Position numbers and translations under genes: made by a program
Part shown: positions 7,094 to 47,577 of the stretch, piece by piece
Layout: each line of letters begins with the position of its first letter
How positions within the stretch are numbered: the first letter of the stretch is position 1
NCBI GenBank assembly: GCA_031285625.1
Contig: JAITVV010000018.1
Coordinates: 1-64,000 of the forward strand
Direction: 5' to 3'
Length of the DNA: 64,000 nucleotides
From: Prevotella sp.
Lineage (GTDB): Bacteria > Bacteroidota > Bacteroidia > Bacteroidales > Dysgonomonadaceae
Notes under the pieces: model-generated
Told to the model about the DNA's origin: nothing
Database searches by the model: none
What the model saw: only the letters and a program-made list of their open reading frames with translations

Positions 7094-7124
7094 TTTGTTA
7101 ATTAAAAAAGTTCTAATATCTTTG
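7094..7124 (+). promoter_or_regulatory. Full-consensus Bacteroidota promoter for the rtcB cluster
   Basis: TTTG at 7094-7097, exactly 19 bases, then TATCTTTG at 7117-7124: a perfect match to the sigma-ABfr consensus TTTG-N19-TAnnTTTG. Transcription would start near 7130, giving a leader of about 260 bases before the first gene of the RtcB cluster. It is the best promoter match I found in the window. Confidence 0.75.
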
Positions 7125-7130
7125 CGATTG

Positions 7131-7389
7131 AAATTTGAGTACTAACCCTTTAAAAACTATGGAAAGGGTACAATTATGTTAGAGAAAAAATAAATCAGAA
7201 TCAGGACTAAGTTGGCTTATCGGGATGAAGAGCATTTGCAACTTATTTTCTTATATCAAATACCAAAAACTACAATTGGTAATTGTTGATTAGTCCTACA
7301 ATCAAACTATAATTATTACGAAAGCTGATATATCGGCTATAGGTCTATTTTGTCCTTATGTCGCGCTGTATCACATAATACAATTTTTC
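7131..7389 (+). promoter_or_regulatory. Long leader with candidate structured RNA
   Basis: This 259-base stretch has no gene but several paired segments. GTAC/CCCTTT at 7139-7151 pairs with AAAGGGTAC at 7163-7171 with a small bulge. AGGACTAA at 7203-7210 pairs perfectly with TTAGTCCT at 7290-7297 and encloses two adjacent hairpins, ATTTG 7234-7238 with CAAAT 7257-7261 and ACCAA 7262-7266 with TTGGT 7276-7280, a multibranch shape. Tiny ORFs (MERVQLC at 7159, MLEKK at 7177) could be leader peptides. It may be a regulatory leader, an independent small RNA, or chance in AT-rich DNA. I recognise no known family. Confidence 0.35.
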
Positions 7390-8172
7390 ATGGGCAATTT
7401 TGCTAATGAGCGAGACCTCATTGTACAAAATAATCTGCCTGCATACCGTTGGAAAATAAGGCGTATACGTACAGCTAATGATAAAAAGTTGCGCCGGATG
7501 GAAAAAGAATATAAACGTGTTTATAATCAAATCAGGGATTTAGGTTACGAAGATCTGAATCCACCAATCCAACGAGGATACAAGCGATTGTTCGTATTGA
7601 CAGAGGAAACCAAGTATAGTAAACAAGCGGATTTTTATCAGGAACTGCTGGATAAGATAAACACAATACGATATAGTCCGCACAAAACTTTTAAAGAGAA
7701 GAAACGGAGAATCGGTAAATGGAAGTATAAAGTGCGGAATGAGCAGGCTTTACAGGAATTTGACAGCTGGACTTTTCATGATAATAAAAAGTTTACAGCC
7801 GAAGAAAAGAAGCTGTTCTACCGGGTTGAGTATTATGACTTTTCCTTGAAGGGGTATAGAGCCAAGTATGTGTTCTTTGAACCGTGGCGCTTTGCTTTGA
7901 GAGTGAAACTGAATATAATTACAAAAGTGCAGATTAAAGATTTTGAATTGGAAAAATATCGCGACGAGCTGAGTGATTATCTGGATCAGGATAAAAATCG
8001 CAGAAGACTGGTAAAAACAGTGTATGGAAGTAACACATATTCGTGGAAGAAAGTAATTAATGAACGTGAGAATAAAAAGAAATATAATTACAATTCTTTT
8101 ATAAATGTGCCTCTCCATATGGTAGAAGAAATATATAAAGAAGAAAAAGATTTAATATGGAAATTCGATTAA
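7390..8172 (+). CDS. Uncharacterised basic protein, first gene of the rtcB-prfH cluster
   Basis: I do not recognise this family. The 260-residue product has no signal peptide or membrane helix and is strongly charged, with many Lys/Arg and Tyr/Trp residues; an apparent helical region near 25-55 (KIRRIRTANDKKLRRMEKEYKRVYNQI) is compatible with RNA binding. A second half from about 150 contains RVEYYDFSLKGYRAKYVFFEPW. Its last 16 bases overlap the start of rtcB, so the two are translationally coupled and probably functionally linked. A role as an RNA-binding or damage-recognition partner of RtcB is inference from context and composition only. Confidence 0.75.
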   Translation: MGNFANERDLIVQNNLPAYRWKIRRIRTANDKKLRRMEKEYKRVYNQIRDLGYEDLNPPIQRGYKRLFVLTEETKYSKQADFYQELLDKINTIRYSPHKTFKEKKRRIGKWKYKVRNEQALQEFDSWTFHDNKKFTAEEKKLFYRVEYYDFSLKGYRAKYVFFEPWRFALRVKLNIITKVQIKDFELEKYRDELSDYLDQDKNRRRLVKTVYGSNTYSWKKVINERENKKKYNYNSFINVPLHMVEEIYKEEKDLIWKFD

Positions 8173-9554
8173 AAGAATTAAGCAAATTAGGATATACCGA
8201 CAATGTGGCTCGCAGTTTGGCTATAAATATAATAAGTAAGCATTGCAAGCATAATACGAAAGTTGAGGTGACAAACATATTGACAGATTTGTTGGAATAT
8301 CCTGAAAATTACAAGAACAATGAAGTATGGGGTAAGCTGGCAGAGCATTTTGCCCCAACTATATACGAAAAGAAATTTATGGTATATGATCTCACCGATC
8401 AGCCATTGCCATTCAAAACTTATGGAGGCAAGTTTATAGAAAGCCTGGCTAAGCAACAAATGGAGCTGGCAATGCGCCTACCCATTACGCTTTCGGGAGC
8501 ATTGATGCCGGACGCTCATGCCGGATATGGTTTACCTATTGGTGGGGTATTGGCTGTAGATAATGCGGTGATACCTTATGCAGTGGGTTTAGATATCGGT
8601 TGCCGGATGAGCTTGACCGTATTTGATGCGAAGGTAGATTATTTGAAACGTTATTCGCATCAGATAAAGGAAGCATTGAAGGAATATACACACTTTGGTA
8701 TGGATGGTTGTCTTTCTTTTCCTCAAGAACATGAAATACTGGACAGGAAAGAGTTTCAGCTCACTCCACTACTAAAAATGCTTCATGGTAAGGTAGTACG
8801 ACAACTTGGTTCGTCCGGCGGTGGCAATCATTTTGTCGAGTTTGGTGAAATAGAACTGATAGAAAATAATGTATTGAATTTACCCGCTGGAAATTATGTA
8901 GCTCTGCTCTCCCACTCCGGCTCGCGCGGTATGGGAGCAGCTATTGCAAAGCACTACAGTAATATAGCGCGTGAAGTTTGCAAACTGCCACGCTATGCAC
9001 AACATTTTGCATGGCTGGGACTCGATACTGAAGAAGGGCAGGAATACTGGATGAGTATGAATCTGGCAGGGGACTTTGCACAGGCTTGTCATGAAAGGAT
9101 ACATATTAATCTTTCCAAAGCGTTAGGACTGGAAGCTCTGGGTAATGTGAATAATCATCACAATTTTGCATGGAGAGAAGAAATCGCACCCGGAAAGTTT
9201 GCCATCGTACACCGAAAAGGTGCTACCCCTGCGGGAAATGGCGTTGCCGGATTTATACCCGGTAGTATGGCTACTCCAGGTTATCTGGTATGTGGAAAAG
9301 GTAGTCTGGAATCGCTTAATTCGGCTTCACATGGTGCAGGACGTGCTATGTCGAGACAAAAAGCAAAGGAACAATTCACTCAGTCTGCTTTGAAGAAGTT
9401 GCTTACTCAGCAAGGAGTAACTCTTATTGGCGGTAGTGTAGAAGAAATGCCTTTGGCTTATAAAGACATCGACAGGGTGATGCCTGCACAGGAGTCTCTG
9501 GTAGATATACACGGACGCTTTATGCCGCGAATAGTAAGAATGAATAAAGAGTAA
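8157..9554 (+). CDS. rtcB: RNA 2',3'-cyclic phosphate / 5'-OH ligase RtcB (PrfH-linked type)
   Basis: GTP- and Mn-dependent RNA ligase that joins a 3'-phosphate or 2',3'-cyclic phosphate end to a 5'-OH end. Motifs are complete: MPDAHAGYGLPIGG at 118-130, GLDIGCRM at 144-151 with the metal ligands Asp146 and Cys149, GSSGGGNHFVEF at 218-229, SHSGSRG at 252-258, NNHHNF at 332-337, HRKGATPA at 352-359, and SASHGAGR at 389-396 whose His392 should carry GMP. Length 465 exceeds the roughly 408 of E. coli RtcB, with a longer N-terminus. The start ATG lies inside the preceding ORF, and a GTG-started gene follows after 4 bases. With prfH 4.5 kb downstream, it resembles the RtcB2-PrfH ribosome-repair pair rather than a lone RtcB. 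Confidence 0.95.
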   Translation: MEIRLKELSKLGYTDNVARSLAINIISKHCKHNTKVEVTNILTDLLEYPENYKNNEVWGKLAEHFAPTIYEKKFMVYDLTDQPLPFKTYGGKFIESLAKQQMELAMRLPITLSGALMPDAHAGYGLPIGGVLAVDNAVIPYAVGLDIGCRMSLTVFDAKVDYLKRYSHQIKEALKEYTHFGMDGCLSFPQEHEILDRKEFQLTPLLKMLHGKVVRQLGSSGGGNHFVEFGEIELIENNVLNLPAGNYVALLSHSGSRGMGAAIAKHYSNIAREVCKLPRYAQHFAWLGLDTEEGQEYWMSMNLAGDFAQACHERIHINLSKALGLEALGNVNNHHNFAWREEIAPGKFAIVHRKGATPAGNGVAGFIPGSMATPGYLVCGKGSLESLNSASHGAGRAMSRQKAKEQFTQSALKKLLTQQGVTLIGGSVEEMPLAYKDIDRVMPAQESLVDIHGRFMPRIVRMNKE

Positions 9555-9558
9555 AACT

Positions 9559-10050
9559 GTGGGTTGGAAAGTAGTAGAACGAAAGTTAGGCAGGGCAGGT
9601 GGTATAAAACAGCAACAGGCTCGCCAAAAAGAATGGGACAGCAAATATGGTGCGGATAACTGGATGGTTGGTTATATTATTAATGATAAATTTATTACAT
9701 CCGAAGAAGCATTCGACATTATCTATTATCCAAGCTATGTACAGCATTTCAGGAATCATCCCGAAGATTTAAACGAGTTGGTTTCTACAGCTAAAAGTCT
9801 GCGGAATCCACATGCTGAAGCTACAGGAGGTGTTGATTTACAGGTTCCTGCTATTCAGAGATATCTGAGGGAAAATAACCTGACTCTACAAGGTAGTGCA
9901 CTGATGGATATAGGCACATGGGGAAATATACATTCTCATAAACTAAGTGTCAGGGTAAGTCCCTTGCAAATCAAAGTAGTGGGCGACGACAAGATAACCC
10001 TTGAAAAATACTGGCAGGAGAAAAAAGTATTAGTAGTATGGACAGATTAA
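9559..10050 (+). CDS. Uncharacterised RtcB-associated protein
   Basis: The 163-residue soluble protein starts at a GTG, 4 bases after the rtcB stop; no ATG is available near the homologous-looking beginning (VGWKVVERKLGRAGGIKQQQARQKEWDSKYG). I do not recognise the family. It contains a basic Gln-rich opening, then YYPSYVQHFRNHPEDLNELV near 58-76, and the C-terminal half has alternating hydrophobic strands (KLSVRVSPLQIKVVGDD). The tight spacing on both sides suggests translation coupled to rtcB and a role in the same process. The first six or so residues depend on the choice of GTG. Confidence 0.75.
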   Translation: MGWKVVERKLGRAGGIKQQQARQKEWDSKYGADNWMVGYIINDKFITSEEAFDIIYYPSYVQHFRNHPEDLNELVSTAKSLRNPHAEATGGVDLQVPAIQRYLRENNLTLQGSALMDIGTWGNIHSHKLSVRVSPLQIKVVGDDKITLEKYWQEKKVLVVWTD

Positions 10051-10058
10051 AAGAAATT

Positions 10059-10829
10059 AATATGAAAAATAAAATAAGGTTAGACCACGAATTACCATTG
10101 GCAGTAGTTGAATGGGGTTGGAAATTTCATCACCTTGGAACTCCAACAGATAAAGTAATGCCTGATGAGACGTATTTGGCACTCTTTAAACTTTATGTTT
10201 CAGGATTTGACACAAGCCCTTTTGGCATTGAGTGGATGCGGTATGAGAAAGATTCGCCTATTCATCCGCTAATACAGGAAGTACCCCATATCTGTTTTGA
10301 AGTAGAGAATCTTGATTATGAATTAAGCATACACGATTTTAATATTATAACATTGCCAAACTCACCATCAAAGGATACAAGGGTTGCAATGATAGAACAT
10401 AATGGCGCGCCAATGGAATTAATTGAGTTTAAAAATAAAAAAAATAGTAATAAGAAAAATAAAATAAGATTGGACCACGAATTACCATTGGCTGTTGAAG
10501 AATGGGGCTGGAAATATCATCATTTGGGAATTCCAACAAATAAAGTATTGCCGGAAGAGAGATATTTACCCCAATTTAAACTGTATGTTTCAGGCTTTGA
10601 CACAAGCCCGTTTGGGGTGGAATGGATGCGATATGAAAAAGACAGTCCAATATCAGATATAACAAAATCAGTTCCTCATATTGCATTTGAAGTTGATGAT
10701 ATTGACCAGGAATTCGCCAAATATAATTTTGAAATTATTTCTGAACCAGGTATACCTTCCGATGGAGTCAGAGCAGCAATGATTTTGCATAATGGTGCAC
10801 CAATCGAATTAATAGAGTTTAGAAAGTAA
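10059..10829 (+). repeat. Internal tandem gene duplication, two units of about 375 bases
   Basis: Unit 1 begins at 10062 and ends near 10437; unit 2 runs from about 10455 to 10829. They are similar at DNA level as well as protein level, for example AAAAATAAAATAAG(G/A)TT(A/G)GACCACGAATTACC at both starts. The A-rich linker near 10434-10460 encodes KNKKNSNKK. The high DNA identity indicates a recent duplication. Confidence 0.85.
10062..10829 (+). CDS. Tandem-duplicated VOC-fold (glyoxalase-like) protein
   Basis: Two copies of a 125-residue domain lie head to tail (about 1-125 and 131-255). Each begins KNKIRLDHELPLAV, carries FKLYVSGFDTSPFG and EWMRYEKDSPI, then PHI(C/A)FEV and ends GAP(M/I)ELIEF, the pattern of vicinal-oxygen-chelate enzymes such as glyoxalase I and antibiotic-resistance proteins. 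Such domains usually pair to make one active site, so the fusion could be a built-in dimer. No function is assignable; His in WKxHHLG is a possible metal ligand. The first copy aligns with the second from the ATG at 10062, so I prefer it to the in-frame ATG at 10038, which would overlap the previous gene. The next gene overlaps its stop codon by one base. Confidence 0.75.
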   Translation: MKNKIRLDHELPLAVVEWGWKFHHLGTPTDKVMPDETYLALFKLYVSGFDTSPFGIEWMRYEKDSPIHPLIQEVPHICFEVENLDYELSIHDFNIITLPNSPSKDTRVAMIEHNGAPMELIEFKNKKNSNKKNKIRLDHELPLAVEEWGWKYHHLGIPTNKVLPEERYLPQFKLYVSGFDTSPFGVEWMRYEKDSPISDITKSVPHIAFEVDDIDQEFAKYNFEIISEPGIPSDGVRAAMILHNGAPIELIEFRK

Positions 10830-11269
10830 TGACAGATTTATATACAGGAAAAGATTTATTGATAAAGAAGTATGGGTTAAATCTCAAGAATGATGGTTAT
10901 TGGTACATTAAGAAGGAAAATGCTCATGAACAATTAGTTTTTAAGGACTCATTCTTTCAAAAGAGTGACCTCATAATTATTCTGTTTCGAATTTATAAGC
11001 TTTGTTTTGCTAAGGTCAGTTATTTCAGGCGAAATATACATAAGTATGAAGCATACAAGTATCATTATAAGGATGGATTTACTCAAACAGACCTATGGGA
11101 TGCAGACTTCTTTAAGCATAAGAAGTCAGGATATATTATTGATTTCAGATTTCTGCAAACTATAACAGATATAAACATATTCTTGCAGTTAGTTGCAGAA
11201 CTAGAGTTGACAGAGGATGAGAAATATCGCGACATGAGTATTTTTTCGCGATTGGAGTCCCTGTCGTAA
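10829..11269 (+). CDS. Uncharacterised protein
   Basis: The 146-residue product has no signal peptide or membrane helix and no motif I recognise. It is rich in aromatic and charged residues (YWYIKKE, YKLCFAKVSYFRRNIHKYEAYKYHYKDG) and ends in a likely helical, acidic C-terminus. Its ATG shares one base with the TAA of the VOC gene, so translation is probably coupled. Codon use resembles the VOC gene, a little more AT-rich than rtcB, which may mean that the two arrived together. Function unknown. Confidence 0.65.
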   Translation: MTDLYTGKDLLIKKYGLNLKNDGYWYIKKENAHEQLVFKDSFFQKSDLIIILFRIYKLCFAKVSYFRRNIHKYEAYKYHYKDGFTQTDLWDADFFKHKKSGYIIDFRFLQTITDINIFLQLVAELELTEDEKYRDMSIFSRLESLS

Positions 11270-11289
11270 CAAACATAATTTAAAAAACA

Positions 11290-12135
11290 ATGAAAATAGC
11301 AATATTTGCCGATATACATGGCAAGATACTTCTACCGTTCAAGATGGTGGATGCTTATCAAAAACAATATGGAGAAAAGATAGACCTGATTCTCCAATGC
11401 GGAGATATAGGAGCTTTTCCGGACATAGAAAAACTGGACAAAGCCACAATAAAGCATGCCAAAGGGGACATGCAGGAACTGGGGTTTAGCAAGCAGTTTC
11501 TTTATATCAACCGGGATATCGAACAATTTCTGGACAAGCTGGATATCGATATGATTTGTGTACGTGGTAATCACGAAGACCATGATTTTCTGGACGAAAA
11601 AGAAGGAAAAGCAACAGACTTTCGTTACCCTATCGACTGCTATCATAGAATATTTGTTTGCAAAAGCGGTATCACACAGTCATTTTGGAAAGATGGGGAA
11701 GAACTTGTCTTTATGGGTATCGGACGCATTGGTGACCGTAAACAACGGAATGACAAACGTTTTATCCAGGAATATGAACGCAGGGAAATTAAAAGGGCTC
11801 TTCATCAGGGACATAAAATAGATATTCTTATTTCGCATGATATATCTTCAGAGATGACAAGCCCCGGATTCGGCATGGACGAACTCCGGCCTGTATTGAA
11901 CCAGTTAAGACCTTTTGCACATTTCTTCGGGCATACTGGTAAACCCTATAAGGTAGAACTGGATGAGAATAAGCAGACTTTTTCCGTAAAAATAAAAGAG
12001 CTGGAATTTGATGTCTCCGGTAGTTTGCCCGAAGGTTGCATGTTTATACTTGAAAAAATAAATGGCGTGATTGAAGGAGATCCGGTTAGTATCGATTTTA
12101 TTCGTCAGTTCAATAAACATACATGGCTTTTGTAA
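11290..12135 (+). CDS. Calcineurin-like metallophosphoesterase
   Basis: Predicted dinuclear-metal phosphoesterase. The metal motifs appear in order: FADIHG at 6-11, QCGDIG near 36-41, VRGNHEDHD near 79-87, ISHD near 180 and FFGHTGKPY near 211-219. The 281-residue protein is soluble and has an extra C-terminal region of about 60 residues after the last motif. It lies 20 bases after the previous gene and completes the first half of the rtcB-prfH cluster. Members of this superfamily include 2',3'-cyclic nucleotide and RNA phosphodiesterases, so trimming of RNA ends before or after RtcB sealing is a reasonable but untested inference. Confidence 0.85.
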   Translation: MKIAIFADIHGKILLPFKMVDAYQKQYGEKIDLILQCGDIGAFPDIEKLDKATIKHAKGDMQELGFSKQFLYINRDIEQFLDKLDIDMICVRGNHEDHDFLDEKEGKATDFRYPIDCYHRIFVCKSGITQSFWKDGEELVFMGIGRIGDRKQRNDKRFIQEYERREIKRALHQGHKIDILISHDISSEMTSPGFGMDELRPVLNQLRPFAHFFGHTGKPYKVELDENKQTFSVKIKELEFDVSGSLPEGCMFILEKINGVIEGDPVSIDFIRQFNKHTWLL

Positions 12136-12203
12136 TTTCGGATAAAATTATCTAATATTATGTTGCATTAGAAGAATAGAAAGTAACAAATTAAAATAGA
12201 GGT

Positions 12204-12283
12204 AAAAGTGTTACTTTTGTCACCTTTTGTTTGTATTATATTGAATATTAGTATTCTATGAAAATAGAAAAAGTGTTACTTTT
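12204..12283 (+). promoter_or_regulatory. Candidate promoter with two copies of an AAAAGT-gtt-ACTTTT operator
   Basis: A 15-base inverted repeat, AAAAGTGTTACTTTT, occurs at 12204-12218 and again at 12269-12283, 65 bases apart. The first copy overlaps TACTTTTG at 12212-12219, a fit to the -7 consensus. The pair precedes the zinc-ribbon gene at 12307, so the prfH half of the cluster probably has its own promoter and repressor-like control. A variant, AAAACTATTACTTTT, lies upstream of the lipoamide dehydrogenase gene at 35773. Confidence 0.5.
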
Positions 12284-12306
12284 TACATTAATTTGAGACT
12301 TACAGA

Positions 12307-12876
12307 ATGAAAAGATATACAAAATCAGGTAGATATTATAAAAACTACTATTTAGTAGAATGTCCCCAATGTCATAAACCAGCCAATGTGGAAAAAGGAA
12401 TACTTAGCTGTCCGAATTGTATGCTACTAAAGAATGCAGATGATGATATTTCATATAAGGCATATGTAAAACGGTTTTGTCCTTATTGTGGAAAAGAAAT
12501 ATATGCTGAACAGTCGGGATTTAAAACTCCCCCGAAAGAAATAAGTGTGACTTGTTCTCATTGTCAGGAAGCTATTGAATATTCTCCGAATATTGAGAGC
12601 TACCGGAAGATATATTCTTTACCTCAGGATACAGGACTAAAGAAAGACCCTTATTTCTGCTTACCATTGTGGTTGCAAACAGAGGTGAAAGGAAATATTT
12701 TCTGGGCATGTAACCGCGAGCATCTGCAGGAAATAAAAGAATATGTAGAATCTGACCTTCGCGAACGGTTATGGCCATATCTGATGACAATGACGGCAAA
12801 ACTACCCGCATTTATAAAAGATGCGAAAAATAGGGAAGATATTATAAAGGGAATTAACCGGCTGGAAAAAAAATAA
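12307..12876 (+). CDS. Zinc-ribbon protein of the rtcB-prfH cluster
   Basis: The first 90 residues hold four CxxC pairs: C19/C22 (CPQC), C35/C38 (CPNC), C58/C61 (CPYC) and C83/C86 (CSHC). These would make two zinc ribbons of the TFIIB or rubredoxin-knuckle kind, usual in proteins that bind RNA, DNA or the ribosome. The C-terminal part (about 105-189) reads DPYFCLPLWLQTEVKGNIFWACN followed by helices. It starts a second tight run of genes, ending 2 bases before the next ATG. A role in recognising damaged RNA or ribosomes is inference from context. Confidence 0.8.
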   Translation: MKRYTKSGRYYKNYYLVECPQCHKPANVEKGILSCPNCMLLKNADDDISYKAYVKRFCPYCGKEIYAEQSGFKTPPKEISVTCSHCQEAIEYSPNIESYRKIYSLPQDTGLKKDPYFCLPLWLQTEVKGNIFWACNREHLQEIKEYVESDLRERLWPYLMTMTAKLPAFIKDAKNREDIIKGINRLEKK

Positions 12877-12878
12877 TT

Positions 12879-13475
12879 ATGGGATTACTTGATTTATTAT
12901 TTCCAAAGAAGGAAGATGCACAGAAAGTGACAGAAGAGGATATGCGTAATACTATTATTAAGCTGAATCTACTTATAACAATTCTGGAACTATTTGATGG
13001 TACTTGTGCGGATAAGGTTGTTACCCGTTTGGGGCTGAATGAATCTTATGGTTTCACAAAACCATATCCAATCATCGATTTACTAAAATGCCAGCAGGAT
13101 CATTACTTAATTGACCGGTATATTCCTTTACTTGCTTATGGACATGGGACAATATATGCATATGATAGCCTTTTAAATGGATTTATAAAATACTATTTGG
13201 AACTGGGGCCTAAAGATGGGCGATATCCTACTCTTACATGGGACGGCGTATTTATTGACTATATATTCAGTTTATGGGAAAATAAGTGGATAGATGATGA
13301 TAATGAAGAATATACGAATGAGGATATAATATATGTTGGAAAATTGTTAGGCTTGAAACATATTGAAGTGATAATGGAATCCATCGTCAGGAATTTCGAG
13401 GTTGGTACTTTCAACTCTTACGAAAAATGGAAACAAGAGACGACAGACCTATTAAATGCTCATATAAATGAATGA
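12879..13475 (+). CDS. Uncharacterised protein of the rtcB-prfH cluster
   Basis: Predicted mostly helical cytosolic protein of 198 residues with no recognised domain. It opens MGLLDLLFPKKEDAQKV, carries many acidic residues, and has a WDGVFIDYIFSLWENKWIDDDNEEYTNEDI segment near 123-152. It begins 2 bases after the zinc-ribbon stop and its end overlaps the next gene by 8 bases, so it is part of the prfH transcription unit. I do not recognise the family and assign no function. Confidence 0.7.
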   Translation: MGLLDLLFPKKEDAQKVTEEDMRNTIIKLNLLITILELFDGTCADKVVTRLGLNESYGFTKPYPIIDLLKCQQDHYLIDRYIPLLAYGHGTIYAYDSLLNGFIKYYLELGPKDGRYPTLTWDGVFIDYIFSLWENKWIDDDNEEYTNEDIIYVGKLLGLKHIEVIMESIVRNFEVGTFNSYEKWKQETTDLLNAHINE

Positions 13476-14022
13476 TCTTATCCATTATCACGATTTTAAA
13501 CATCATCTATTATCTGACCTGAAATGGTTAGAGAAGAACAAGGGCGAATGGGATGAAGTTATAGAACTTGATCTAAAATCGATAGGTAATTCTCAGTTGG
13601 ATTTTTATATAGGTAATCTTTCTTCTGAAAATATCAAAGCAGAGATGTCTGCATGGTTAAGAAGTCGTCAGCTTTACCAGAAAGATAATTACAAAGATTG
13701 GATCAGCGAAAATAAAGGTTTCAGGGAAGTAAAGCTTTCTGATGATTCGGCATGGACGTTGCGTATTATAGAGAAAGAGTCGTTTATACATATTCATCCG
13801 TCACGCTATTCCACGCATACTATGCGTATAAAGGCAAATACATTGAAAACAGTATTATGCACACTTCTCTTTGAGAATATATACACATTTATATTCAATA
13901 CAGAGTCGGTTAATTATTATAGGGATAAATATTTAGATTTATCTCTTGTTAAGGTTGCTGGCAACCACAATGAACTGGAGGCTGTTTTCAGCCTGTTTAC
14001 AGATAAAAGAATAAATGAATAA
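13468..14022 (+). CDS. Uncharacterised protein of the rtcB-prfH cluster
   Basis: A 184-residue soluble protein without recognised motif. A central segment (ESFIHIHPSRYSTHTMRIKANTLKTVL near 103-130) is basic and may bind nucleic acid, with flanking mixed alpha/beta sequence. Start overlaps the previous gene by 8 bases and its stop overlaps the start of prfH by 8 bases, the tightest coupling in the cluster, which makes it a strong candidate partner of PrfH. No function assigned. Confidence 0.7.
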   Translation: MNDLIHYHDFKHHLLSDLKWLEKNKGEWDEVIELDLKSIGNSQLDFYIGNLSSENIKAEMSAWLRSRQLYQKDNYKDWISENKGFREVKLSDDSAWTLRIIEKESFIHIHPSRYSTHTMRIKANTLKTVLCTLLFENIYTFIFNTESVNYYRDKYLDLSLVKVAGNHNELEAVFSLFTDKRINE

Positions 14023-14635
14023 TAAAATATACTTACAAATAACTTCAGGAAGAGGGCCAGCCGAATGTTGCAGGGCTGTGGCTTTAGTTTTGGAGAAAAT
14101 ATTAAAGCAAGCGAAGGATCAGGCGTTAAAAGCAGAGGTGATAGATCGTGAAGCCGGTCCGCTTAACAGGACATTATTATCTGCAACCTTATCGATAGAA
14201 GGTAAGAACCCGCATGAAATGGTTAAAGAATGGGAAGGTACAATACAATGGATATCAAAAAGCCCTTATCGTATTTATCACAAACGTAAAAACTGGTTTA
14301 TAGGTATTCAGACTTTTACTATTCCTGTCAATAAGGAAGCCAATGAAAGAGAAATCCGCTACGAAACTTTACGCGCTTCAGGACCGGGTGGGCAGCATGT
14401 GAATAAAACAGAATCAGCTGTAAGGGCTATCCATACACCTTCAGGCTTAAGCATTACAGCATCTGATCAACGATCACAACTGCAAAATAAGAAACTGGCA
14501 ACAGAACGCTTACTAATAAAACTTGCAGCATGGAATGTGGAACAAGCAATGATTGCCGCACAGGCCAATTGGAGTAATCATAACACTCTTCAACGAGGAA
14601 ATCCTGTAAAAGTAATAGAGGCTCCATTGTCTTAG
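14015..14635 (+). CDS. prfH: Peptide chain release factor homologue PrfH
   Basis: Short class I release-factor relative that hydrolyses peptidyl-tRNA. The catalytic GGQ is at residues 125-127 in ASGPGGQHVNKTESAVRA, followed by the basic SDQRSQLQNKKLATERL block at 149-166. At 206 residues it lacks the N-terminal domain of RF1/RF2, and I see no stop-codon-reading PxT or SPF motif. E. coli PrfH paired with its RtcB has been shown to act on ribosomes with a broken decoding-centre rRNA, releasing the peptide so that RtcB can reseal it. The gene ends the cluster, coupled by overlap to the preceding unknown gene. ArfB/YaeJ is an alternative GGQ protein but is smaller, with a basic C-terminal tail absent here. 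Confidence 0.92.
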   Translation: MNNKIYLQITSGRGPAECCRAVALVLEKILKQAKDQALKAEVIDREAGPLNRTLLSATLSIEGKNPHEMVKEWEGTIQWISKSPYRIYHKRKNWFIGIQTFTIPVNKEANEREIRYETLRASGPGGQHVNKTESAVRAIHTPSGLSITASDQRSQLQNKKLATERLLIKLAAWNVEQAMIAAQANWSNHNTLQRGNPVKVIEAPLS

Positions 14636-14745: not shown

Positions 14746-15348
14746 ATGAAAAAGTTATTAATAGCCATTAGTATATTTTTTGCAGTAGGAATGGTTTCTC
14801 CTACAATGGCACAGAACATAAATATAAACATAAATTTGGATAAGCAACCGGCTTGGGGTCCAACTGGATACGACTATGCAGGATATTACTATTTCCCTGA
14901 TATTAATGTATACTTTGATGTGAATAATTCCCTGTTCTATTACCTTACAAGTGGGAGATGGATTTCGAACCAGTACTTACCTAGCAGTTATCGTAAATAC
15001 GATCTGTACAGCATGTATAAGGTTGTAGTAAATGATAATCAGCCTTGGTTGCAAAATAAGACACATAAGAAGTCATATTCCCAGTATAAGGGTGATCGTA
15101 CTCAGGAGCCTATTCGTTACAGTAATAATACTAAATACAATAATAGTAAGAATAATACACGAGGCTGGGTAAATACTAATTCGAACTCAAATTCGAATAA
15201 TAACAGACAGAATGCCAGAGAGAGCAGTAATGTTACTAGTAATAGAAATACTGACAGTCGGCAGACAACAAATAGGAATACTACAGACAGACAATCTGAT
15301 AGGAACTCAAGTACTACAAGGAATTCAAATACTACAAATAAAAGATAG
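14746..15348 (+). CDS. Secreted protein with Asn/Ser/Thr/Arg low-complexity tail
   Basis: Signal peptide (hydrophobic 4-18, cleavage likely after TMAQ at 23), then a compact domain of about 80 residues rich in Tyr and Asp (WGPTGYDYAGYYYFPDINVYFDVN), then a tail from about 110 to 200 made of Asn, Ser, Thr, Arg, Gln and Asp. The first domain resembles small periplasmic or surface proteins of Bacteroidales whose function is unknown. The tail looks disordered and may contact DNA, glycans or the wall. The gene stands alone, followed by a terminator shared with the convergent DinB-like gene. Confidence 0.8.
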   Translation: MKKLLIAISIFFAVGMVSPTMAQNINININLDKQPAWGPTGYDYAGYYYFPDINVYFDVNNSLFYYLTSGRWISNQYLPSSYRKYDLYSMYKVVVNDNQPWLQNKTHKKSYSQYKGDRTQEPIRYSNNTKYNNSKNNTRGWVNTNSNSNSNNNRQNARESSNVTSNRNTDSRQTTNRNTTDRQSDRNSSTTRNSNTTNKR

Positions 15349-47018: not shown

Positions 47019-47221
47019 TTATTTAATTATTTATTAAAATATGTTTGTCCTTCTTTATGAAGCTTATCAGGGATAAATGAAGACAAAAAGTATGCCTAAC
47101 AATAGACATAAAAATTAAAATGCTTAAATAAAAAATAATAAAAGAGAATAAGAACACATTTTATATAAAATATATCAGAAGTTCTCCAGCTTTATTCCCC
47201 GAAAGCTTTAAACTACGTATT

Positions 47222-47475
47222 TTGGCAGGTCTTCTGACTTACTCCATCTTTGAGCGCCTTCCCGCTAATACCAATAGTTCTAAATTAATAGTTCAAATAC
47301 CTCCTACTTTTTTTCATGGATAGTTTTTGTTGACCATTAACTGTAACTATTACAGCAGTGGATTGAGTTAACTCAAAGACTTTGGTGGAGCTTACAGCAG
47401 CGGGTCTGTTCCGGATTTACACCGGATTCCCTTTTCACCACTTTGTACGGATGTATAAAGTGACACCAAAATGTG
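47222..47475 (-). ncRNA. Cobalamin (B12) riboswitch
   Basis: On the minus strand the sequence has the conserved blocks in order: GGTGAAAAGGGAATCCGGTG, TAAATCCGGAACAGACCCGC, then GCTGTAAG, the CCACTG B12-box-like element, and finally AGCGGGAAGGCGCTC and GTCAGAAGACCTGCC at the 3' end near 47224. That is the cobalamin (adenosyl- or methylcobalamin) riboswitch core. The next gene downstream is pflB, whose start is about 204 bases later. A hairpin (AGCTTT/AAAGCT, 47188-47207) follows but lacks a T-run. Most B12 riboswitches control uptake or synthesis genes, which are absent here. Confidence 0.9.
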
Positions 47476-47577
47476 GCATCAAAGATAAGAATTTTTATGT
47501 AAATCTTCAATTAAAATAAATCAAAGACGGATCTGTGGATTTTATGGATATAGATCTATTGTTAAATACTCTGAAAC

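Follow-up and report, generated by a model that had tools for sequence, protein, structure and literature searches.

In Pseudomonas aeruginosa, the leader peptide PA5471.1 controls transcription of armZ (PA5471), whose product is an RtcB-like anti-repressor, and the gene adjoining armZ, PA5470, is prfH. The system is induced by ribosome-targeting drugs, deletion of PA5471.1 or an early stop in it raised ArmZ, and in the published model full translation of the leader peptide leads to a terminator, which stalling relieves (in those parts of PMC12057347, PMC13041342 and PMC3884212 drawn on here). TPR, Pol-beta, zinc-ribbon and charged-helix proteins have been described around RFH-RtcB pairs, that is rtcB beside the gene for release factor H (Burroughs and Aravind 2019, the portions of PMC6514570 drawn on here). 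Here we describe an rtcB-prfH cluster and its leader RNA in a stretch of 64,000 nucleotides (nt) from Prevotella sp. (assembly GCA_031285625.1, contig JAITVV010000018.1, positions 1 to 64,000 of the forward strand), which is referred to throughout as the window.

The cluster is a modular rtcB-prfH ribosome-repair operon, and we consider it probable that it is inducible, being controlled through its leader by the status of translation, with optional helper genes added to it. In ribosomes whose decoding centre has been cut, PrfH would release the nascent chain and RtcB would reseal the 16S rRNA, roles which have been shown elsewhere for the E. coli pair, while the added genes would be optional helpers, differing from strain to strain. 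We infer the function of every helper: g1 and the zinc-ribbon protein may bind RNA or ribosomes and the phosphoesterase may take part in end processing. Ribosomes translating a short open reading frame (ORF) in the leader would keep the nascent RNA in an OFF form, failed or stalled translation of that ORF would let the RNA refold into a form that allows expression of the repair genes, and these would be switched off again by repaired ribosomes. Comparison of sequences establishes the conservation of the leader, its predicted structure and its ORF within the family, together with a predicted ORF-based terminator-antiterminator arrangement in two related families; that the terminator-less leader of the window works by the same logic is something we infer by analogy, its output presumably being the bistable element before g1.

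The conserved leader RNA

A leader of about 260 nt separates the promoter from g1, the first gene, whose start codon is at 7390 (Table 1). We take position 7094 to be the -33 TTTG box of a Bacteroidetes-type promoter consensus, and a TTTG box also lies within 45 nt upstream in most of the 27 related leaders that were displayed. The leader could be aligned across Dysgonomonas, Bacteroides and Tannerellaceae loci. In an alignment of 18 sequences (A3), helices P1-P4 were paired in 99.1% of 448 cells, compared with at most 54% for control structures slid along the alignment, and double changes were seen in 11 of 25 pairs. None of 500 shuffles equalled the alignment in paired percentage, in covariation score or in double-change counts; pair types were no more numerous than in shuffles (398/500).

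A covariance model of this RNA (R1) scored 157.6 bits at 7138-7308 of the window, which is itself in the training set. Samples of 101 family, 393 order and 395 phylum genomes, overlapping in part, were available for searches. With 26 candidates per genome scored under stricter filters, R1 exceeded 100 bits at 20 places, spread over 19 of the family genomes; 12 of these places are in the training alignment and 8 outside it, and three further places were weak, near 27 bits. All 20 strong places stand before genes of the cluster, in some cases with rtcB and prfH lost. Fourteen are at prfH loci, the family sample holding 15 genomes with prfH, of which the 15th is at a contig edge; the others precede g1-rtcB at a contig end (G028), rtcB-voc-...-KptA without prfH (G005), a prfH fragment with voc (G007), solitary voc genes (G007 and G016) and znr-AAA/M41-KptA (G027). 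The RNA was present in two of nine solitary-voc neighbourhoods fetched, and because a g1-like start was seen there by eye these are probably reduced clusters. The R1 signature locates genes of the cluster even after loss of rtcB and prfH.

R1 recovers the Bacteroidales prfH loci with the leader in view, except divergent ones, which score weakly or not at all, and in other orders it is absent or barely found (two Chitinophagaceae loci, E 0.004 and 0.02). Rfam gave no match over the gathering score for the leader of the window, and on seven loci with other leader types it gave only Flavo-1, far from the leader. From these comparisons the conservation of the leader is judged to be strong.

Leader ORFs and alternative RNA structures

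The leader of the window holds a mini-ORF shortly after P1 (Table 1), and a mini-ORF of 4-6 codons stands at the same place in all 27 R1 leaders displayed, closely following a GGG-containing arm that resembles a Shine-Dalgarno (SD) sequence (for example MLEKK, MLVKK and MLEQ; peptides are given without their stop codons). Codon 2 is Leu in 26 of the 27, encoded by TTA, TTG or CTG. At the same place in 37 loci, mostly of Mucilaginibacter, Pedobacter, Chitinophaga and relatives, stand MTEQRYISPLSLIA and variants; the Chitinophagaceae leader ORF reads MLEQ, and that of families f123 and f124, which are taken here as Flavobacteriales, reads MFVLTSTSQSF..LRGLFQS or similar. Of 101 distinct loci for which 250 nt or more of upstream sequence was available, 89 matched one of these ORF classes; among controls, a match was seen in 2 of 1010 mononucleotide shuffles and in 2 of 613 regions lying upstream of other genes. 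A check by eye for base pairing between P2 and the Bacteroidales mini-ORF gave no consistent picture, and such pairing was discarded.

Leader ORFs were also seen before rtcB-family genes in enterobacteria. All five E. coli loci read have an identical AAGGAGGTAAATC-ATG and ORF MTNPLSMTLCRPFQD, and the one P. mirabilis locus read has a similar SD and the ORF MTTTNMNTLCGQSQK; in these loci (L316, L317-L319, L321 and L320) prfH follows the rtcB-family gene. On the E. coli plasmid pMTY18781-3 (L316) the leader lies between yafP (ending at 1616) and the rtcB-family gene (starting at 1862). Three of the E. coli records label the ligase gene a pseudogene, and an NCBI note on an E. coli rtcB-family pseudogene mentions drug-inducible mexXY expression.

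In f123 and f124 an intrinsic terminator lies 20-24 nt after the leader ORF in 22 of 25 leaders (L089, L093 and L313 do not fit), and the CTTCGYGGYTT of the ORF can pair with the 5' arm of the terminator, AARCCCGAAG. Across the 22 leaders this antiterminator helix was paired in 99.1% of 220 cells, slid versions reaching at most 62.3%, and the terminator stem in 92.9%, the misses in this stem being confined to two columns of seven sequences, in which the 3' arm is aligned one base out of register. On completing the ORF, a ribosome would mask the antiterminator arm and bring about termination, and one not reaching that arm would permit read-through. Since the f123 and f124 peptides share little beyond LRG, it is unlikely that the signal is one specific amino acid.

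In the window, two mutually exclusive helices before g1, A and B, have the predicted appearance of a switch. In an alignment of 17 sequences (A8), 98.8% of cells were paired in A and 93.2% in B. Helix B has double changes in three pairs and six cells (25/500 and 1/500 shuffles), with a best slid version of 59%, and helix A has them in one pair and six cells (1/500 shuffles for cells, 451/500 for pairs). With each helix enforced in turn, local folding of the window gave -14.1 kcal for A and for B.

A number of points weigh against control of the operon by translation of its leader. The ORF class patterns were written after viewing the same leaders, and 12 of the 101 distinct loci fit no class. 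P1, in which five of six counted pairs are invariant, is without covariation support. In the antiterminator helix eight of ten pairs never vary, only one has changes on both sides (in seven sequences), and neither changed pairs nor pair types are more numerous than in shuffles. No intrinsic terminator was found in the leader of the window, so the output step there is a guess. Helix A, too, has no more changed pairs than shuffles do, and its best slid version is 71% paired; over the 17 sequences the lower-energy local fold is B in 14 and A in 2, with the window tying, and folding of the complete leader of the window favours A (pair probability 0.66-0.85, versus 0.07-0.12 for B). Lastly, the attenuation step at PA5471.1 is given as still unconfirmed in a 2025 review (the parts of PMC12057347 drawn on here).

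The leader might instead be an RNA sensing a protein or small molecule, by which RtcB, PrfH or g1 regulates itself or which acts as a riboswitch, with the mini-ORF incidental or only opening the RNA. The three-way junction P2-P4 is indeed large and well conserved, exceeding the needs of a plain attenuator, and no terminator adjoins the ORF in the window, but the mini-ORFs keep the same place in other orders where R1 is barely found or not at all, codon 2 varies mostly among Leu codons, and in the 22 leaders the antiterminator pairing involves the ORF itself. We regard such a sensor as rather improbable.

Control by translation could also take a narrower form, decidedly improbable in our estimation, in which the leader senses the 16S lesion directly, forming a closed loop that responds to whether 16S is intact and not to the general rate of translation. 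Translation of the mini-ORF would depend on an SD able to pair with the very end of the 16S rRNA 3' tail, a cut in the decoding centre would separate the 3' fragment carrying this tail, and gain, loss or release of the tail would alter mini-ORF translation, or the free fragment would pair with the leader; the altered leader RNA would then turn the repair genes on. Because the 16S gene of the window's own genome was not found in the assembly, the tail was taken from two relatives, whose 16S 3' end is CACCTCCTTTCT; the AGAAAGG present in many leaders is complementary to it, as is, over six bases, the GAAAGG of the window. Bacteroidia ribosomes normally hide this tail (according to the part of PMC9976891 drawn on here).

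Gene content of the cluster and of related loci

The initial annotation placed rtcB and prfH in one tightly packed plus-strand cluster of ten genes, and this holds good: the ORFs run from 7390 to 14635, g1 first and prfH last, eight of the nine junctions range from a 16-nt overlap to a 20-nt gap (the mpe-znr gap being 171 nt), and both genes pass curated profile cut-offs (Table 1). Against TIGR03073, the model for release-factor-linked RtcB, the ligase scored 134.1 bits, below the cut-off of 271.8 for assignment to that subfamily. About 90 N-terminal residues of RtcB (window 8157-8430) lie outside the TIGR03073 match. When the proteins were compared with Pfam, NCBIfam, PHROGs and PADLOC, no convincing match was found for g1, g3, g5, g8 or g9, and the zinc ribbon and VOC proteins were recognisable yet under curated cut-offs. 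Among solved structures, the g1 profile had no PDB match at E 1, mpe had none at E 0.01 and g8 had a chance match only.

Table 1. Positions in the window of the promoter, predicted leader RNA elements and genes
Feature	Position	Strand	Description
Bacteroidetes-type promoter	7094..7124	+	TTTG 7094-7097, 19 nt spacer, TATCTTTG 7117-7124
Leader	about 7131-7389	+	Untranslated; ends at g1 start
P1 hairpin	7145..7169	+	Predicted; ACCCTTT/AAAGGGT; 3' arm is SD-like GAAAGGG, seven nt before mini-ORF
Mini-ORF	7176..7193	+	ATGTTAGAGAAAAAATAA (MLEKK, then stop), five codons
Three-way junction	7203..7297	+	Predicted; P2 7203-7210/7290-7297, P3 7214-7233, P4 7239-7242/7285-7288
Bistable element	7324..7373	+	Predicted; helix A 7324-7328/7333-7337 excludes helix B 7326-7332/7367-7373; 16 nt before g1 start
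g1	7390..8172	+	Basic charged protein, 260 aa, upstream of rtcB
rtcB	8157..9554	+	RNA ligase family, 465 aa; PF01139 260 bits (cut-off 27)
g3	9559..10050	+	163 aa, GTG start, no family match
voc	10038..10829	+	Double VOC-domain protein, 263 aa
g5	10829..11269	+	146 aa, no family match
mpe	11290..12135	+	Metallophosphoesterase, 281 aa; PF00149 44.8 bits, over Pfam cut-off
znr	12307..12876	+	Zinc-ribbon protein, 189 aa
g8	12879..13475	+	198 aa, no family match
g9	13468..14022	+	184 aa; of a family widespread across Bacteroidales as a solitary gene
prfH	14015..14635	+	Release factor H, 206 aa, GGQ motif (GPGGQ); TIGR03072 295.8 bits (cut-off 166.65)

A prfH gene was present in 15 of the 101 family, 15 of the 393 order and 28 of the 395 phylum genomes. 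A total of 126 loci was reduced to 113 with distinct prfH, including the window and four from viral contigs, some being cut by contig ends. The pairing of rtcB with prfH, on which the initial annotation relied, is kept in most relatives, with rtcB upstream in 108 of the 113 loci and at most 150 nt away in 86 of these, although 19 have the two more than 300 nt apart, and the 4.5 kb of the window is the longest spacing among them. The prfH gene itself was met in 45 plasmid records, 23 phage records (including likely RF2 matches) and 5 viral contigs. One contig filed as viral (L225, 607,744 bases) has rtcB and prfH with short ORFs between.

Near prfH in the 113 loci, the window included, g1 was found 39 times, znr 8, voc 5, mpe 3, g9 3, g5 2, g3 once and g8 once. 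Every g1 match in the family genomes is at rtcB (one being a remnant), mpe stands between rtcB and prfH in all three loci that have it, and znr is at prfH in three further family genomes and in G027 adjoins AAA-M41 and KptA genes. Each of mpe, g5 and g9 occurs in one further family genome, adjoining prfH, which for g5 is another Dysgonomonas; voc is also solitary in several family genomes. The order genomes were searched with a joined query, at most two candidates per genome being scored, and separately for g3 and g8. Relatives of g9 are common solitary genes, present in most of the 37 of 393 order genomes that matched the joined query, and g5 has three solitary relatives (E <1e-10) and a weak one away from prfH, in genomes that also carry prfH. 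For g3 no relative was found in the family genomes and only two weak matches in the order genomes (E 0.003 and 0.009), with a pair of short remnants downstream of rtcB in Dysgonomonas sp. 521; for g8 none was found in the family or order genomes or in plasmids. In relatives of g9 (L252-L268) the motifs KHH...DxYxGxL...IHIHPxR were seen by eye, and the member in the window has no Pfam match. A mobile or viral origin of the extra genes was considered and discarded, g9 and mpe having no relatives in the viral contigs searched and g8 none in plasmids, where the other extra genes were not searched for.

Thus g1, the zinc-ribbon protein and this phosphoesterase subfamily are almost only found at rtcB-prfH loci, and the co-occurrence on which the initial annotation rested its case holds for these three, while voc, g5 and g9 also occur elsewhere and g3 and g8 have no convincing relatives. 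Membership of the operon is well supported for g1, znr and mpe, moderately for voc and weakly for g5 and g9. The larger repair machine envisaged there did not stand up as a fixed set, since the gene content varies from locus to locus, and one fixed machine is rejected.

This variation, the uniqueness of g3 and g8 and the solitary relatives of g5, g9 and voc would also be expected if the extra genes were passengers that play no part in repair, gathered at a loose insertion site between rtcB and prfH, a few perhaps being orphan immunity genes; a stretch of g8 looks SUKH-like by eye, with no support from the databases. The constant places of mpe and g1 speak against passengers, as does the persistence of voc and znr behind the leader RNA after loss of rtcB and prfH. 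Compared with Dysgonomonas sp. 521, rtcB, mpe, znr and g1 have ratios of non-synonymous to synonymous change (dN/dS) of about 0.04 to 0.08 (dS 0.9 to 2.9), indicating that mpe, znr and g1 are under purifying selection, which also tells against passengers; for g9 (dN 0.33) and prfH (dN 0.07) dS is saturated. We hold the passenger explanation to be possible but somewhat unlikely.

Further repair-like genes flanking prfH in relatives are KptA, RNA ligase, HD plus kinase, RNase-T-like, Pol-beta-like, TPR and AAA fused to M41 peptidase genes. At two loci (L058 and L147) rtcB-prfH is followed without a break by genes for KptA, an RNA ligase and HD plus kinase, which may place two routes of RNA sealing side by side. 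The first four of the flanking kinds point to cut RNA, and this bears on whether the cluster is mainly an antibiotic-response locus, acting on drug-stalled ribosomes with rRNA repair secondary. That explanation is favoured by the drug induction of the P. aeruginosa relative, whose PrfH is reported to relieve macrolide-stalled ribosomes (again in the parts of those papers drawn on here), and by the VOC folds, which include drug-modifying enzymes, the VOC protein here having a FosM-like match far below the cut-off. However, E. coli rtcB2-prfH protects against colicin E3 (in the part of PMC9223846 drawn on here), and with the neighbours just named we think an antibiotic-response locus unlikely.

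Two features lie beyond the cluster. An Asn-rich protein with a signal-like start (14746-15348) is kept after prfH in three Dysgonomonas loci, the window included, and a Cobalamin riboswitch (93.6 bits) lies on the minus strand at 47207-47485.

Comparison with described systems

Like E. coli RtcB2-PrfH (RFH-RtcB), the window has, in what looks like a single transcription unit, a ligase of the RtcB family and a PrfH over the TIGR03072 cut-off, with GGQ, but its RtcB, of 465 aa, is far below the TIGR03073 cut-off and it has seven genes between the two and g1 in front. The accretions described around RFH-RtcB likewise include a zinc-ribbon protein with a charged C-terminus, and the TPR and Pol-beta genes described there occur in relatives of the window; the charged helical protein is probably g1. 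To this extent the system was already described, and not undescribed as had first been thought possible, but the phosphoesterase, double VOC, AAA-M41, KptA, RNA ligase, HD-kinase and RNase-T-like genes and the leader are not in the passages of PMC6514570 drawn on here. Extended-SD autoregulation of rpsU in Bacteroidia (the part of PMC9976891 drawn on here) shares an SD-like element, in a phylum normally ignoring SDs, that could report the 16S 3' tail, whereas in the window the SD fronts a mini-ORF and not the regulated gene.

The window also resembles PA5471.1-armZ-PA5470, which has a short leader ORF before an RtcB-like gene next to prfH, and in 22 leaders of f123 and f124 a terminator would, as there, be favoured by full translation of the ORF. 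The window has the short ORF of such an attenuator and differs in having a three-way junction and a bistable element, with no ORF-coupled terminator-antiterminator found. The open-access literature searched gave no paper linking the Bacteroidota, E. coli and Proteus leader ORFs with PA5471.1. We read the leader as probably following the logic of PA5471.1-armZ-prfH in new RNA forms, which bears on the question of what turns rtcB-prfH repair operons on. If leader ORFs precede most Bacteroidota rtcB-prfH operons, as well as those of E. coli and Proteus, the Pseudomonas system would be one branch of a widespread response to ribosome status.

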